Positions 22,011 to 28,861 of a DNA stretch of 64,000 nt are shown here, piece after piece. The position numbers and the translations under genes were made by a program. The notes under the pieces are model-generated. The model did not search any database, was not told the DNA's origin, and saw only the letters and a list, made by a program, of their open reading frames with translations. Where the stretch lies: assembly GCA_002898215.1 (NCBI GenBank), contig BEIF01000001.1, forward strand, positions 1,091,602-1,155,601, in the 5' to 3' direction. How positions within the stretch are numbered: position 1 is the first letter of the stretch; the number at the start of each line of letters is the position of its first letter. The stretch comes from a bacterium HR29 (GTDB lineage Bacteria > Chloroflexota > Dehalococcoidia > Tepidiformales > Tepidiformaceae).

Positions 22011-22835
22011 TCAGCGTTCGCCGTAGATGCGGGTGAGAAACTCGTAGAGCGCCGGGTCGTAGAGCCGCAGCCAGCCCCTGTCCCGGTGTCCGGCGGGGTC
22101 GGCAGAAGCGAAGAAGGCTTGGGTCCCTTCGGCGAAGTACTCGTTCGAGTTCGTCGAAGCGTACTCTCCCTCGTACAGTCCGGCGCGCATCGCGTCGGCG
22201 TAGAGGTATCGCACCTCCAGATGCTCCTCGGGCGAAAGACCCCAGGAGTCGACGAGGTGGCCGAGCTCGTGGAAGAGGATGTTCAAGCCGCGACAGGGGC
22301 CGGAGCGCACGCCGAGAAGGTCGCGCTCCTCGACGGTGGCGACGGGATAATCGCCGGCGGCATCGGCGACGCCGCACACGTCTTCGAGGAAGGCAGCATC
22401 ATCCCCCCGCAGGCAGCGGAATTCCGGCAGGTCGAGAACCGAGCGGCCGGCGGGCACGATGATGACGTAGGCTCCCGCTTCGGCGAGCGCCAGCTCGAGG
22501 TCGTTCCGGGCGAACACGCGCCGGATCGTCTCCTCCGCTACCCGGAAAGCCTCCGGGTCGACGTCGGCCGTGCCCACGATGGCGATCCCCGCCGCTTCGG
22601 CGATCTGGGTGTACTCGGGGTGGAAGGTGCGCCGCTCGCCCGGCTCCGGGGAGCGGAGGAGGCGGGTGCAAACATCGCCTGGCTCGCGCACCGCCGCTTC
22701 CGGTGTGGGCGCGGCGAAGAAGGCGACCGGCCCGCGGATGGAGGGGCCGGCGACAGCGATGGCGGCGGCGACGGCGACGGAGGTCAAAAGCGCAGCCGCG
22801 AGCGGCCAGAAGGTGGGCTCCCGGAGGAGGCGCAC
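22011..22835 (-). CDS. secreted/membrane-anchored HExxH zinc metallopeptidase-like protein
   Basis: 274 residues. An N-terminal hydrophobic helix (about residues 10-30) acts as signal or anchor. The zinc motif HELGHLVDSWG sits near residue 190. NSNEYFAEGTQAFF ~45 residues later offers a Glu as third ligand (gluzincin arrangement). Four Cys before the active site (VCTRLL, FRCLRG, DVCGV, GPCRG) could form disulfides outside the membrane. GTG start six bases after a CATGCT hexamer. Substrate unknown; it is not clearly any MEROPS family I can name. Confidence 0.7.
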   Translation of the reverse strand: MRLLREPTFWPLAAALLTSVAVAAAIAVAGPSIRGPVAFFAAPTPEAAVREPGDVCTRLLRSPEPGERRTFHPEYTQIAEAAGIAIVGTADVDPEAFRVAEETIRRVFARNDLELALAEAGAYVIIVPAGRSVLDLPEFRCLRGDDAAFLEDVCGVADAAGDYPVATVEERDLLGVRSGPCRGLNILFHELGHLVDSWGLSPEEHLEVRYLYADAMRAGLYEGEYASTNSNEYFAEGTQAFFASADPAGHRDRGWLRLYDPALYEFLTRIYGER

Positions 22836-23622: not shown

Positions 23623-24429
23623 TCAGGTCCTCCGCGAAAGGATGAAGGTGAGTGCCGTTGCTGCCGCGGTGACGATCCCGGCGGCGATGGCGAAGGGGAG
23701 CGGATCGAAGGGGCGCTCGCCGGTCGCTTTCGGCGCCGCGAGCGAAGCCCCTGGCGGCGGAGCTTCCTCCACCGCGTGGTCGTGGACCGCTGCTGGCGTG
23801 CCCGGGGAAGCCTCGGGAACGGGCGTTCCCTCGGTGGTCCGAACGTCAGGCGTCACGGCTGGGCCGAGGTAGCCGCCGTCCACGGGCGGGGATTGGCCCG
23901 CCGCGGCTACGTCGGAGGGTTCCGCCATCGGGGTCTGGCCAGGGCTGGGCGAGGATGCCACCACGGGCGGCGCGTGGTACGGCGAACCGGCCGCGGGTGC
24001 CTCGCCGCGCCCGTCCGGTTGGACACTCTCGGCGGCGCCGCCGGCCCCTCGATGCTCCTCGGGCGCGGCCGGCGGAGTCCTCTCCAGCGTGAACTGGAGC
24101 GTCAGGAGGACGCCGAAGGCGATGGCGCCCGCGAGGGCGAACGCCTGCGCCGCGAGCGTGGCGGCACGCCAAGCCAGCGCTGGGCGGGCCTCCCCACCCC
24201 GTCGCTCCACCATCGCCGGAGTGAGGAGGAAGCTTCGCGGAAGGGGAGGGCCCTCCAAGCTTCCGAGGAACGCCCGCACCTGGCGGAGCTCTTCGAGCTC
24301 CGCGCGGCAGCGGCCACACCTCGCCAGGTGGCGTTCCAAGCGGGCGCGCTGGCGTTCCGAAAGGGCGCCGTCGGCAGCCTCGTCGACGAGACGGCTCCAG
24401 CGGCGGTGCCCGAATGGCAAGAGGTTCAT
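23623..24429 (-). CDS. anti-sigma factor with zinc-finger (ZAS/zf-HC2) domain
   Basis: 268-residue membrane protein. The N-terminal cytoplasmic anti-sigma domain carries HLARCGRCRAEL (HxxxCxxC). A transmembrane helix follows near residues 95-115, then a long Pro/Glu/Ala-rich extracytoplasmic segment. A second hydrophobic helix (FAIAAGIVTAAATALTFI) and a basic tail end the protein. It should hold the adjacent ECF sigma factor until a signal acts. Start overlaps the sigma gene stop (ATGA). Confidence 0.88.
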   Translation of the reverse strand: MNLLPFGHRRWSRLVDEAADGALSERQRARLERHLARCGRCRAELEELRQVRAFLGSLEGPPLPRSFLLTPAMVERRGGEARPALAWRAATLAAQAFALAGAIAFGVLLTLQFTLERTPPAAPEEHRGAGGAAESVQPDGRGEAPAAGSPYHAPPVVASSPSPGQTPMAEPSDVAAAGQSPPVDGGYLGPAVTPDVRTTEGTPVPEASPGTPAAVHDHAVEEAPPPGASLAAPKATGERPFDPLPFAIAAGIVTAAATALTFILSRRT

Positions 24430-25040
24430 ACCGTTCCTCGACCTTCACGACGTTCTTCGAGCCCGAAAAGTTCCGCCTGGGCGAGGAGGAGCTCCCGCAG
24501 GCGGCGGCGCGCTCGGAAGAGTCGGCTCTTCACCGTTCCGACCGGTTCGCCGAGGACGCGCGACGCCTCCTCGTACCCGTAACCCTGGACGTCGATGAGG
24601 ACCACGACCGCGCGCTGTTCGAACGGCAGCTCCAGGAGCGCCTGTTGGAGCGCAGACCGGCGGGCCCGCTGCTCCGCTGCGGTGACGGGGTCCTCCGCGA
24701 CGGTGTCCGTGCGAGTTCGTTCGGCGGCGCTGGTCTGCGCCTCGAGGGAGAGCGCCGGGCGGCGACGGCGGGCACGGAGCTGGTCCTTGGCCTGATTGGC
24801 GGCGATGCGCAGCAGCCACGCGCGGACGCTACCGCTGCGGAAGCCATGAAGGGCGCGGAAGGCGGCGATGAACGTTTCTTGGGTCGCGTCCTCGGCGGCG
24901 GTTCGCTCGCCCAACAATCGATAGGTCACGGCGTAGACGGCGCTCTGGTGGCGCTCGACGAGCCTGTTGAAGGCGTCCAGGCTGCCGTTCTTCGAAAGTA
25001 GGACCAGCTCCTCGTCGGTGAGATCGCCGATGCCGCTCAT
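24426..25040 (-). CDS. ECF-family RNA polymerase sigma factor (RpoE-like)
   Basis: 204 residues with regions 2 and 4 only. Region 2 contains FNRLVERHQSAVYAVTYRLLGERTAAEDATQETFIAAF; region 4 contains QALLELPFEQRAVVVLIDVQGYGYEEASRVLGEPVGTVKSRLFRARRRL split over two helices. The linker is longer and more charged than usual. It leads an operon with its zinc-finger anti-sigma and a SIMPL lipoprotein. ATG 25040 follows TACCCT by eight bases, so its own transcript may be leaderless. Confidence 0.93.
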   Translation of the reverse strand: MSGIGDLTDEELVLLSKNGSLDAFNRLVERHQSAVYAVTYRLLGERTAAEDATQETFIAAFRALHGFRSGSVRAWLLRIAANQAKDQLRARRRRPALSLEAQTSAAERTRTDTVAEDPVTAAEQRARRSALQQALLELPFEQRAVVVLIDVQGYGYEEASRVLGEPVGTVKSRLFRARRRLRELLLAQAELFGLEERREGRGTV

Positions 25041-25048
25041 TGCTGGCG

Positions 25049-25054
25049 AGGGTA
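25049..25054 (-). promoter_or_regulatory. -10-like element before the ECF sigma gene
   Basis: TACCCT on the minus strand, eight bases before ATG 25040. No typical ECF (AAC/CGTC) pair was recognised, so autoregulation is not supported by sequence. Confidence 0.35.
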
Positions 25055-25113
25055 GGTCAACGCTGGGAAAGATGCGACCACCGCTTCGAAATCGGGCGCC
25101 GGGGAGGCTGTGA

Positions 25114-25119
25114 TACGCT
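25114..25119 (+). promoter_or_regulatory. extended -10 element before the large lepB
   Basis: TG-A-TACGCT (TGn extended -10, hexamer 25114-25119). ATG codons follow at 25123 and 25129; only the second lies downstream of the expected transcription start. Confidence 0.4.
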
Positions 25120-25128
25120 GAGATGACG

Positions 25129-28100
25129 ATGCCGCGCCGAGACGATCCGTTCGAGGAACGCCCGGAGGAGGAACAGCAGCAGGAGGACGGGTGGTATTTC
25201 GACCTGCCGAGCGGCGCCTGGGACCGGACCCGTCAGGTGCACCGGCAGCTTCGCGAGCAGCTCCTCCAGGGAGAGGGCCGACGCGAGGAGAAGGTCGAGC
25301 GCGACCCGTTCACCGGCCTCCCCGTCGAGAAGCCGAAGGGGCTGTTCGGACGGTTCCGCCGGCGGAAGCCGCGACTCCCCGAGGACCTCGAGCGCGAACT
25401 GAAGATCCGGGAGCAGCAGAAGCGAGGCAAGCGCTCCGCCGAGGAGGGTGACTGGTCGACCGAGGGAGCGGCGTTCGCCATCGACCGTCTCCGCGACGAG
25501 GCACCGCTCATCGTTCGGCCCACCGCCCCACCACCCCCGCCTCCCGAGCCGGAGACCGAGGCCCCTGTTTCACGCTGGGAGCAGATCTTCGGTGGCGTGG
25601 AGGAGACGGAAAGCCCCCTCGAGGCGATGCGGCGGTGGGCCCGAGGCGAACGTCTGGGACCGGCCGAGCCGTCCATAGCCGAGGAGCCCCCTCGGGACGA
25701 GGACGTGGGCGCTCCGGAGGAGGCGGAAGAGGAGCCGGACCCGATCATCGAGTTCATGAGCCACGAGCTCGCGCGGAGGGCGCGCGCACGGTGGGAGCAG
25801 GAGCATCCTGCGGAGCCGCTCGCGACCTTCACCGAGGAGAGCGAAGGGGAGCCGGAGGAGGAACACGCGCCGGAGCGGGAGCCGCTCCCCTTCGCGCGGG
25901 CCGACGAGGCCGCGGAGGCGCAGCCGCCACGGCAGATGCGCTGGGAGGATGCGTTCGGCAAGCCCGCCAGTGAAGAGGAGGGCTTCGAGGCGATGCGCCG
26001 CTGGGCGCGCGGCGAGCCCCTCGCCCACGGCGCGGGCTGGGAACGGTTCGAGAGCCGCCAGGCCGCGGCTTCCGACCGGGAGCCGGACGAGCCCCGCCCC
26101 GTGGATGCACCGCCGGCCGAGCCCCGGCGGCGGAGCGTTTTCGGACGGCTCTTCGGCAGGGGCGGCCAACCAGCGCCCGAGCCGTCCGTAGAGACATCGC
26201 TCGAAACGTGGGCCCGCGAGACGGAGCCCGCTGCCGAAGCCGAAGCGGCCGACGAGGAAGGCGCGGGGTGGGCGCCTGTCGAGAGGAACGCGCAGGCTCC
26301 GGCGTGGGAGGCGGCGGGGTTCGAGGACTCGACTGACCTCGAGTGGCAGACGGAAGTTGTCGAGGTGCCAGCCGAAGAGGAGCCGGACAGCGTCACATCG
26401 ATACTCGAAGAGGAAGGCTGGAGCTGGGACCCCGAGCCGGTTCCCCAGCTCTCCTCCGAGCTGCCGACGGGGAACGCAGCGGCCACGGCCGCCGCGGAGA
26501 CCCCGAGCTGGGAGGCGTGGGACTTCGACGCAGAGACCGCCCACTCCGAAGTCGCCGCCGAGGAGCCGCCGCGCGCGGCCTCGTCCGTCGAAGCCCCGGA
26601 CTCCTCCGAGCCTGCGGTATCCGACTGGAGCGCTGGCGGGCAAGCATCGCGCCCCTCGGCGCCCGACGAGGGTGCCGACAGCGCCCTGCCCCTGGCGTGG
26701 GACTGGTCCGACTTCGAAGCGGAGGGGGCGGACGCCACGGCGGAGGCCGAGGCGCGGAGGTCCACGGAGGAGCCCGAAGCCGCGACCCCCTGGGAGTGGT
26801 TCGAGGCTGCCGTCCAGGAGGAGCCGGCCGCGGGACCGCCGCAAGCCGAGCCCGCCGCGGCCGGCGAGGAGCGCCAGGCCGGCGACCGCTCCTGGTGGGA
26901 CGTGTTCGACACGGCCACGGGTGAGCCCACCAAAGAGGCCCCGTCCGCCGGCGAGTGGGAGCATTCGGCACCTCCCGAGAGGGACGCTCAGGCCCCGGCG
27001 GAGCCGGCAGCAGCCGCGGAGGCCGCACCGAGTGCCGATACGGGCGACGAGCTGCTCGCGGCCTGGGACCAGATCGCCGCCGAGAGCGGCGTCGACCCCT
27101 CGGCCCCGCCACCGCCGCCGATCCGGAGCTCGGCTTTCCGGCGGCCTTCCCCGTGGGAGATGGCCGGCCGGCACGCGGAGACGCCGCCGGGCGAAAGCGC
27201 TGTTGACGAAGCGGACGAGAGCGGCCCTGCCTCGGCGCGCGAGGAACCCCAGCCCGCCGCCGAGGAGCCGGTCTGGGTGCCGGCGGAGTCGGAGGGGAAA
27301 GACGAGGAGGACATCATCCTGAAGGCGTTCGAGGCGCACGCCGCAGCCGCCCCCGAGGAAGCGGAGGCGGAGCCCGCCCCCGTCAGCGAGGGGAGGCGGC
27401 GGCTTTCCCTGCGCGACCTCCTCGGCGAGGACGCCGACGACCTCCTCGCCGCAGCCGACGAGGCGGACGAGCCCGTCTCCTTCGCGCAGACCCACGGCTG
27501 GATGCCCCAATCCGCTTCGGGCCGCCTCGAGCGCGATGAATGGACGCCGGTCGGGTTCGAATCGGAGGCAACGCCCTTCGAGACGCCCGTCCCGACGGAA
27601 GCCGAAACTGCCCAATCAGCTCCGCGGAGGCGAGTGAACTGGGTGCGGGAGGTCGTGGAGATCGGCCTCATGGCCGTCCTCCTCTTCCTCTGCATCCGGG
27701 CTACGTTTCAGAACTTCCAAGTCGATGGCACGTCGATGTACCCGACGCTCGTCGACGGGGAGTTCCTGCTCGTGAACAAGCTCGCATACCAGACGATCGA
27801 CCTGGAGCGCCTGAGCACCTTCCTGCCCTTCATCGACCCGGGCGACGACGGGAAGGTGTACGTCTTCGGTCCGCCCCAACGGGGCGACATCGTCGTCTTC
27901 CGCGACCCCACGAACCCCTCGGTGGACCTGATCAAGCGGATCATCGCCTTGCCGGGCGAGAAGGTCGAAATCGCGGACGGGAAGGTGTACATCAACGACC
28001 GCCTGCTGGAAGAGCCGTACGTGCAGGGCCAGTGGTTCGGCGACCGGCCAGCGGCCATCGTCCCCCAGGGCCACTACTTCGTGTTGGGCGACAACCGCGA

Positions 28101-28272
28101 TAACAGCAAGGACAGCCGCAGCCCGCAGATCGGCTACGTTCCGGAGGACCTGATCATCGGGAAGGCCATCATCACTCTCTGGCCGCGCGACCGTTTCGGC
28201 CTGGCGCCGAACGACGGCGGACGTCTCCTCGACGAAGCGCCGTCCGCCCAGAGCGCCAGGCACGTGGACTGA
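25129..28272 (+). CDS. lepB: signal peptidase I with a giant acidic, Trp-rich N-terminal extension
   Basis: 1047 residues. The C-terminal ~210 are a normal type I signal peptidase: one transmembrane helix (VVEIGLMAVLLFLCIRATF), the Ser nucleophile in VDGTSMYPTL (~869), the Lys base in VDLIKRIIALPGE (~936) and GDNRDNSKDSR. Ahead of the helix lie ~830 residues rich in Glu, Ala and Pro, predicted to be cytoplasmic and mostly disordered. Trp recurs in acidic settings (RWEQIFGG, RWEDAFGK, SWEAWDFD, AWDWSDF, PWEWFEA, WWDVFD). Two ~27-residue copies containing EAMRRWARGE are exactly 366 bases apart (25576 and 25942). Basic FGRF/FGRLF motifs occur near residues 72 and 337. The frame is uninterrupted. 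Typical LepB is 170-330 residues. Confidence 0.9.
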   Translation: MPRRDDPFEERPEEEQQQEDGWYFDLPSGAWDRTRQVHRQLREQLLQGEGRREEKVERDPFTGLPVEKPKGLFGRFRRRKPRLPEDLERELKIREQQKRGKRSAEEGDWSTEGAAFAIDRLRDEAPLIVRPTAPPPPPPEPETEAPVSRWEQIFGGVEETESPLEAMRRWARGERLGPAEPSIAEEPPRDEDVGAPEEAEEEPDPIIEFMSHELARRARARWEQEHPAEPLATFTEESEGEPEEEHAPEREPLPFARADEAAEAQPPRQMRWEDAFGKPASEEEGFEAMRRWARGEPLAHGAGWERFESRQAAASDREPDEPRPVDAPPAEPRRRSVFGRLFGRGGQPAPEPSVETSLETWARETEPAAEAEAADEEGAGWAPVERNAQAPAWEAAGFEDSTDLEWQTEVVEVPAEEEPDSVTSILEEEGWSWDPEPVPQLSSELPTGNAAATAAAETPSWEAWDFDAETAHSEVAAEEPPRAASSVEAPDSSEPAVSDWSAGGQASRPSAPDEGADSALPLAWDWSDFEAEGADATAEAEARRSTEEPEAATPWEWFEAAVQEEPAAGPPQAEPAAAGEERQAGDRSWWDVFDTATGEPTKEAPSAGEWEHSAPPERDAQAPAEPAAAAEAAPSADTGDELLAAWDQIAAESGVDPSAPPPPPIRSSAFRRPSPWEMAGRHAETPPGESAVDEADESGPASAREEPQPAAEEPVWVPAESEGKDEEDIILKAFEAHAAAAPEEAEAEPAPVSEGRRRLSLRDLLGEDADDLLAAADEADEPVSFAQTHGWMPQSASGRLERDEWTPVGFESEATPFETPVPTEAETAQSAPRRRVNWVREVVEIGLMAVLLFLCIRATFQNFQVDGTSMYPTLVDGEFLLVNKLAYQTIDLERLSTFLPFIDPGDDGKVYVFGPPQRGDIVVFRDPTNPSVDLIKRIIALPGEKVEIADGKVYINDRLLEEPYVQGQWFGDRPAAIVPQGHYFVLGDNRDNSKDSRSPQIGYVPEDLIIGKAIITLWPRDRFGLAPNDGGRLLDEAPSAQSARHVD
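25576..26028 (+). repeat. direct protein-level repeat inside the lepB extension (two units, period 366 bp)
   Basis: Unit 1 at about 25573-25662 and unit 2 at about 25939-26028. Both read RWE(Q/D)xFG, an acidic stretch, then EAMRRWARGExL. The identical 122-codon period of both the WE and EAMRRWARGE parts argues for duplication of a longer segment. Confidence 0.7.
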
Positions 28273-28300: not shown

Positions 28301-28861
28301 GTGACTTTGGATGCACTGGCGCTGCTCGAGGGGCGCGGGGCGGTGCTGCGCGGGCACTTCGTCCTCACCAGCGGCCGCCATTCCGACACGTTCATCGAGA
28401 AGTTCCGCCTCCTCCAGTGGCCCGATGTGACCGAAGCGCTCTGCCGAAGGGTCGCGGCCGCCCTGGCATCGACGGCACCGACCTGCGTCGCAGGTCCCAC
28501 GACGGGCGGCGTCATCGTCGCCTACGAAACGGCGCGGCAGCTCGGTGTGCGGGCGCTCGTGGCCGAGCGGAGGGAGCACGGCCCGGGCCGCGAATTCCGG
28601 CGCGGCTTCGAGCTGGGGCCGGACGACCGCTGCCTCGTCGTCGACGATGTGCTGACGACGGGCGGTTCCCTGCGGGAAGTGCTCGCCGCGGTGCGAGAGC
28701 GCGGGGCGGCCATCGCCGGCGTCGGCGTCCTCGTCGACCGTACCGGAGGCGGAACCGATTTCGGGGTTCCCTTCGCCTCGGCCCTGGCCCTCACGGTGCA
28801 ATCGTGGGAGCCGAACGCCTGTCCCCTCTGCCGCGAGGGCATTCCGGCAACGGAAACGTAA
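28301..28861 (+). CDS. pyrE: orotate phosphoribosyltransferase
   Basis: 186-residue enzyme joining orotate and PRPP to OMP in pyrimidine synthesis. It has GHFVLTSGRHSDTF, GPTTGGVIVAYETAR, the flexible-loop AERREHGPGREF and the PRPP motif CLVVDDVLTTGGSLREV. The C-terminal CPLCREG Cys pair occurs in a subgroup of bacterial PyrE proteins. GTG start inferred as leaderless. No other pyr genes are adjacent. Confidence 0.93.
   Translation: MTLDALALLEGRGAVLRGHFVLTSGRHSDTFIEKFRLLQWPDVTEALCRRVAAALASTAPTCVAGPTTGGVIVAYETARQLGVRALVAERREHGPGREFRRGFELGPDDRCLVVDDVLTTGGSLREVLAAVRERGAAIAGVGVLVDRTGGGTDFGVPFASALALTVQSWEPNACPLCREGIPATET

Follow-up and report, generated by a model that had tools for sequence, protein, structure and literature searches.

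Signal peptidase I is usually regarded as a small stand-alone enzyme that reaches its substrates by diffusion. In Gram-positive-like single-TM enzymes of the SpsB and EF3073 type, a short cytoplasmic segment precedes the transmembrane (TM) helix. In Bacillus, signal peptidase carries out the site-1 cleavage of RsiV and RsiP (PMC4183432, PMC8844934). The disordered half of another enzyme, RNase E, scaffolds partners and condensates (PMC10412687, PMC12510024), and ligands of the kinesin light chain TPR domain carry Trp-acidic motifs (PMC6214655, PMC5450233). Here, we analysed a window (the whole stretch of DNA under study, 64,000 nt) from a Tepidiformaceae bacterium (Chloroflexota, Dehalococcoidia) containing a lepB open reading frame (ORF) of 1049 codons. 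Judged by its sequence, the encoded protein serves this organism as its main signal peptidase I and is fused at its N terminus to a long, predicted disordered chain that would act as a scaffold. A sequence-only reading had described an unbroken frame with a LepB domain behind a giant extension; the frame is indeed uninterrupted, and the observation as a whole was confirmed by the ORF, the catalytic domain and homologues across the family.

The catalytic domain, Ser/Lys dyad, TM helix and fold resemble those of SpsB and EF3073, whereas the segment before the TM helix spans ~836 residues with conserved short motifs. As in RNase E (degradosome, BR-bodies), an enzyme is joined to a long disordered region with microdomains in variable linkers and membrane association; however, the enzyme is a different one, the extension is N-terminal and the sequences are unrelated. 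Searches of Pfam, NCBIfam and PDB revealed no domain in the extension and hence nothing that would place it in the RNase E scaffold family; in the Pfam and PDB sequence searches, no match fell within aa 1–826. In the profile search against PDB, the top-scoring entry for the extension was an engineered coiled coil of NEMO (E 0.59), which we discarded as a chance match. Like kinesin light chain ligands and the DPW motifs of eukaryotic adaptors, the extension places Trp between acidic residues within a disordered chain, a short-motif resemblance only that we regard as a lead. Similar to the RsiV/RsiP systems, a membrane anti-sigma/ECF sigma factor pair is encoded beside lepB; cleavage is known there, whereas here there is gene adjacency alone, which is also seen beside short LepB proteins. 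The open-licence literature yielded no paper on a signal peptidase I whose cytoplasmic side carries a long disordered chain, and the long-extension LepB appears to be a new form of a known enzyme family. The features of the locus are listed in the table.

Table. Features of the extended lepB locus (window positions; aa, residues of the 1049-aa protein).
Feature	Position	Strand	Remark
Anti-sigma factor, zf-HC2 zinc finger	23623..24429	-	
ECF sigma factor gene, divergent	24426..25040	-	adjoins lepB in every extension-bearing locus whose contig extends to it
Divergent intergenic region	25041..25122	.	family-conserved boxes GTAGGTCAATC..CTGTAAAGGGCGA; GGGGAGGCTRTGRTACnCTGATG
lepB ORF with extension, 1049 aa	25123..28272	+	second conserved ATG at 25129
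Disordered, acidic, Trp-rich cytoplasmic extension (predicted), aa 1-836	25123..27630	+	
Island 1, N-terminal GWYFDLPSGAWDRTRQVHRQLREQLL, aa 23-48	25189..25266	+	nearly invariant in family; predicted helix 32-52
Basic motif 1 KPKGLFGRFRRRK, aa 70-82	25330..25368	+	
DWSTE island, aa 110-114	25450..25464	+	
RWxxxF...MRRWARG module, copy 1, aa 151-175	25573..25647	+	
RWxxxF...MRRWARG module, copy 2, aa 273-297	25939..26013	+	122 aa beyond copy 1
GWERFE, aa 305-310	26035..26052	+	aligns with family motif P-E-F-L-K-P-F-D-W-E
Basic motif 2 RRRSVFGRLFGR, aa 335-346	26125..26160	+	
Trp-punctuated acidic/Ala/Pro-rich region, aa 363-720	26209..27282	+	tandem Trp-unit arrays here in several relatives
EEDIILKAFEAHAA island, aa 728-741	27304..27345	+	predicted helix 730-740
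LSLRDLLGEDADDLLAAA island, aa 762-779	27406..27459	+	predicted helix 771-779
FAQTHGWMPQS island, aa 787-797	27481..27513	+	family motif RLxGWAPQR
TM helix, ~aa 842-862	27646..27708	+	hydropathy, model
Signal peptidase I (S26) region, PF10502 match aa 843-1020	27649..28182	+	Ser871, Lys938
pyrE, conserved downstream neighbour	28301..28861	+	

The LepB domain is complete, as had been proposed: it matched PF10502 (E 1e-46; 159.5 bits against a cut-off of 22.9) and TIGR02227 (signal peptidase I; 158.6 bits against a cut-off of 47), and the catalytic dyad of Ser871 (SMYPT box) and Lys938 (LIKR box) was invariant in 10 sequences. Foldseek matched it to EF3073, SpsB and E. coli LepB. A hydropathy peak at residue 844 and a model helix at 833–862 indicate one TM segment preceding the catalytic domain, and hydropathy analysis detected none within aa 1–836. 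Given this one TM helix and the way in which single-TM signal peptidases are known to be oriented, residues 1 to ~836 probably lie on the cytoplasmic side. The protein is the sole full-length S26 match in its genome. Elsewhere in the genome there are two small S26-like matches (G000:C1:1450222-1456697, L064); one is partial, and the other lies in a 162-aa frame that looks like a minimal form of signal peptidase or a processing protease.

The extension, which across the family is four to eight times the size of the enzyme, is Ala/Pro-rich in the window's protein, with 30 Trp (3.6%), 24% Asp plus Glu and a net charge of ~-118. It contains no Cys, like the extensions of 11 other proteins examined. 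In the AF2 model (built with only 10 orthologue sequences), 774 of the 1049 residues have a pLDDT under 50, and short helices are predicted at 32–52, 87–101, 165–173, 207–227, 287–295, 643–655, 730–740 and 771–779, several of which fall on conserved islands. The description of the extension as disordered, acidic and Trp-punctuated therefore agrees with the prediction, in which pLDDT is mostly below 50 over aa 1–836, and with the composition. The Trp residues were also said to be regularly placed; their spacing is not significantly regular (CV 0.75 versus 0.94 for random placement, one-sided p ~0.095). The associated W-[E/D]-x-F motif is found in its exact form only three times (306, 557, 592), but acidic residues are enriched at Trp +1 (15 of 30, against a background of 24%). 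Among abundant residues, Trp is the one most often conserved (12 of 30; odds ratio 6.9, p 8e-6). Both of the basic FGRF/FGRLF motifs that had been noticed are present, as KGLFGRFRRRK (aa 72–82) and RRRSVFGRLFGR. The reported repeat with a 122-residue period is real, but it comprises a single module present twice (SRWEQIFG..LEAMRRWARGE at 150–176 and MRWEDAFG..FEAMRRWARGE at 272–298).

About ten short islands are common to the genera in similar order, with fast-evolving linkers between them. The family alignment comprises the blocks GWYFDLPxGAWERQExKNRxLR, basic GLFGxxRK, WSTE, RWxxxF...MRxWAxG, PxEFLKPFDWE, GRLFGRK, WxPEP, DDPWAxF, DDPWAAVAxASGY..YRG, DDDVxLRAFEAHA, LLGxDAxDLVxE and SFxRLxGWAPQR. 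Motif counts far exceed the shuffled expectation: MRxW occurs 1–4 times per orthologue versus 0.01 expected after shuffling, and WYFDLP..AW and AFExHA are each found once in 12 of 12 full proteins. Between close Tepidiforma species, omega was 0.014–0.069 for hand-picked islands, 0.065–0.114 for LepB and 0.51–0.61 for linkers. As the hand-picked set is partly circular, we redefined the islands from conservation in ten other genera only; positions that 7 or more of the ten genera keep had an omega of 0.06–0.24 versus 0.41–0.59 elsewhere, a smaller contrast. Both the Trp motifs and the basic motifs are conserved across genera; conserved Trp motifs in related species had been named as a sign of function. 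Because dN/dS is below 1 overall and far below 1 in the islands, we conclude from these comparisons that the extension is translated and under purifying selection.

Upstream of the ORF, the start context is conserved among relatives. The sequence-only reading had placed the start at the second ATG; M1 and M3 are both invariant in the 10-sequence alignment, with both ATGs (MxM) kept in relatives, so either may be the start. In the intergenic region (25041–25123) and upstream of the relatives' genes (L042, L044–L055), most relatives have a TGRTACnCT box that stops 1 nt short of the first ATG. This box would suit an extended -10 element, with leaderless initiation from the second ATG; alternatively, it could be a translational signal.

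To determine the distribution of the extension, we searched each of 38 genomes from 18 genera of Tepidiformaceae (including Tepidiforma flava) individually, most of the relatives being MAGs with contigs ending inside repeats. Homologous extensions, ~800–1600 aa where complete, were found in 15 of the 18 genera, and the comparison of lepB lengths that had been suggested accordingly revealed long extensions with retained Trp motifs. Short LepB proteins occur in members of genera g17 and g12 (open frames of 264–308 residues), and G012 (g8) has a tail of ~100 residues without the islands, indicating that, in this lineage, the signal peptidase can work without the extension. Among the matches listed in ~350 other Chloroflexota genomes there was no extension of comparable length: the longest LepB-containing open frame among the matches listed was 646 in ~190 other genomes of the class and 575 in a further sample of the phylum. 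Class relatives frequently have Pro/Glu-rich LepB tails of 30–200 residues, a plausible starting point of the extension. The N-terminal motif gave one good match per genome, and every contig with it in a collection of 84,980 species was a Chloroflexota/Dehalococcoidia record or a bacterium bin. No other protein bearing the LepB extension was found in the organism's own genome or in four relatives.

Several genera carry different Trp-centred tandem units of 16–37 aa in 2.5–17 copies: PWWE (32–35 aa), SWFEQD (30 aa), FAWEPP (16 aa) and a three-Trp unit (37 aa). In every array that stays wholly inside the reading frame, the period is divisible by 3; the window's own protein has no such array. In Tepidiforma, 1-nt frameshifts were seen beside G/C runs within Trp arrays (L041 of G026, L043 of G024); WWE units carry on in the shifted frame, leaving the repeat coding intact. 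In a third assembly, an ambiguous base lies upstream of the Trp array (L047 of G022). We considered phase variation, but these irregularities are more probably errors made when the repeats were sequenced or assembled. In G014 and G017, which represent two genera, the extension forms its own ORF that ends in a common FRFTSxxDxR tail and is followed after ~30–80 nt by a short-tailed LepB ORF. In the LepB tree, these two and the fused G010 are nested inside the extension-bearing group, although the G010–G014 node is weak, and G000 clusters with the extension-bearing G013, G019 and G020. As G014 and G017 are nested among fused relatives, the split looks derived, and the extension appears to be a separable unit that stays with lepB. 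A tandem duplication of lepB is present in L055 (G011:C22:43732-45234), with the extended copy followed directly by a second LepB that has a tail of only ~90 residues. Tepidiforma and genus g3 also encode a second LepB, LepB2 (L063, L060, L122–L125), with RRWAPQHG and NWLP motifs. Like the extended LepB it has a Trp-containing cytoplasmic tail, and RRWAPQHG resembles the WAPQ island; in contrast, this tail has only ~110 residues, lies at an unlinked locus and lacks the remaining islands.

Overall, the best explanation, which we rate as having an even chance of being correct, is that LepB anchors a multivalent docking scaffold, with docking inferred and partners putative. Because the tail motifs are kept about as strictly as the enzyme, the enzyme probably doubles as a membrane docking platform. 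One TM helix would hold LepB in the membrane, and the extension would reach into the cytosol, where the islands (short Trp/acidic helices and the two Phe/Leu-basic motifs) may serve as docking sites. The docked partners would be cytosolic or membrane-peripheral proteins, most plausibly of protein export, kept beside the protease. The Trp units would add avidity, which would account for the separate expansion of their copy number in several genera, and through the two basic motifs (GLFG and GRLFGR) the chain may attach to the membrane again. This working principle would be like that of the disordered scaffold half of RNase E, on a protease instead. The multivalent docking suggested by the sequence-only reading is partly supported: translation, predicted disorder, topology and conserved motifs speak for it and repeated Trp-centred units fit multivalency, but the Trp residues are not significantly regular in their spacing. 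The short LepB proteins of g17, g12 and G012 count against a scaffold, as do several family consensus islands (DDPWA, LKPFDWE) that the protein encoded in the window either lacks or shows only weakly.

An annotation artefact, in which translation would begin shortly ahead of the LepB domain and the preceding frame would be open by chance in a GC-rich genome, would have to be considered given 70% GC and the long chance open frames that other frames also hold here. Nonetheless, amino-acid motifs kept over 15 genera, an omega well below 1, the conserved start context, repeat periods in frame and a stand-alone extension ORF in two genera make this hardly credible; motif conservation, dN/dS and start context effectively rule it out. 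If the extension is real, it might merely space or solubilise the enzyme as an acidic brush that binds nothing specific. Fast-evolving, low-complexity linkers of variable length with an omega of 0.4–0.6 and the tandem arrays would fit such a passive role, and some of the length may indeed be passive; as the islands are under LepB-like constraint and Trp is selectively conserved, we consider a wholly passive extension improbable. Alternatively, Trp/acidic stickers could bind the GLFGxxRK/GRLFGR motifs of neighbouring chains, gathering LepB into membrane clusters (condensates) without recruiting other proteins. The sticker-and-spacer make-up (3–5% Trp in most proteins, strongly negative charge, two basic patches) and the variation in Trp repeat number between species are consistent with such self-association, but the strictness of WYFDLPxGAW, AFExHA and LLGxDAxxL exceeds what generic stickers need, and we regard it as unlikely.

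The neighbourhood of lepB raises a further alternative. Gene order is conserved, with SIMPL, anti-sigma and ECF sigma genes all on the minus strand and lepB, pyrE, DinB and folP on the plus strand. A predicted secreted metallopeptidase-like protein is encoded at 22011–22835 (-), with a weak, below-cut-off match to an ATLF/M90 peptidase fold. The extension could couple LepB to the sigma/anti-sigma pair in envelope stress, for instance by keeping the anti-sigma factor in place to be cleaved, for which Bacillus RsiV and RsiP provide a precedent (PMC4183432, PMC8844934). In line with this, the synteny and the divergent promoter region are conserved, and nearly all extension-bearing genomes that include the contig possess the sigma orthologue; the short-LepB clade lacks it genome-wide, apart from a weaker paralogue-level match in G030. 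However, class relatives pair the sigma/anti-sigma genes with a short-tailed LepB and G012 has the sigma gene with its ~100-residue tail, which breaks a strict co-occurrence of extension and sigma factor; co-absence of the two may also be one event. Because the sigma gene adjoins short LepB proteins too, we keep such coupling as a rival only, and a rather doubtful one. In a bolder form of the docking scaffold, which we put forward tentatively as possible but not probable, the disordered platform of LepB would cluster export, ribosome–nascent-chain or envelope-stress proteins, with Trp repeats tuning its valency and the platform split off as its own gene in one lineage.

Together, the retention of 800–1600 disordered residues on LepB, with motifs constrained about as strongly as the catalytic domain, points to an undescribed cytosolic organisation of late secretion. 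If true, the export hub would correspond, in bacterial secretion, to the degradosome of RNase E. The cultured species Tepidiforma flava and T. thermophila, together with the natural split version, make the scaffold idea testable in this family.
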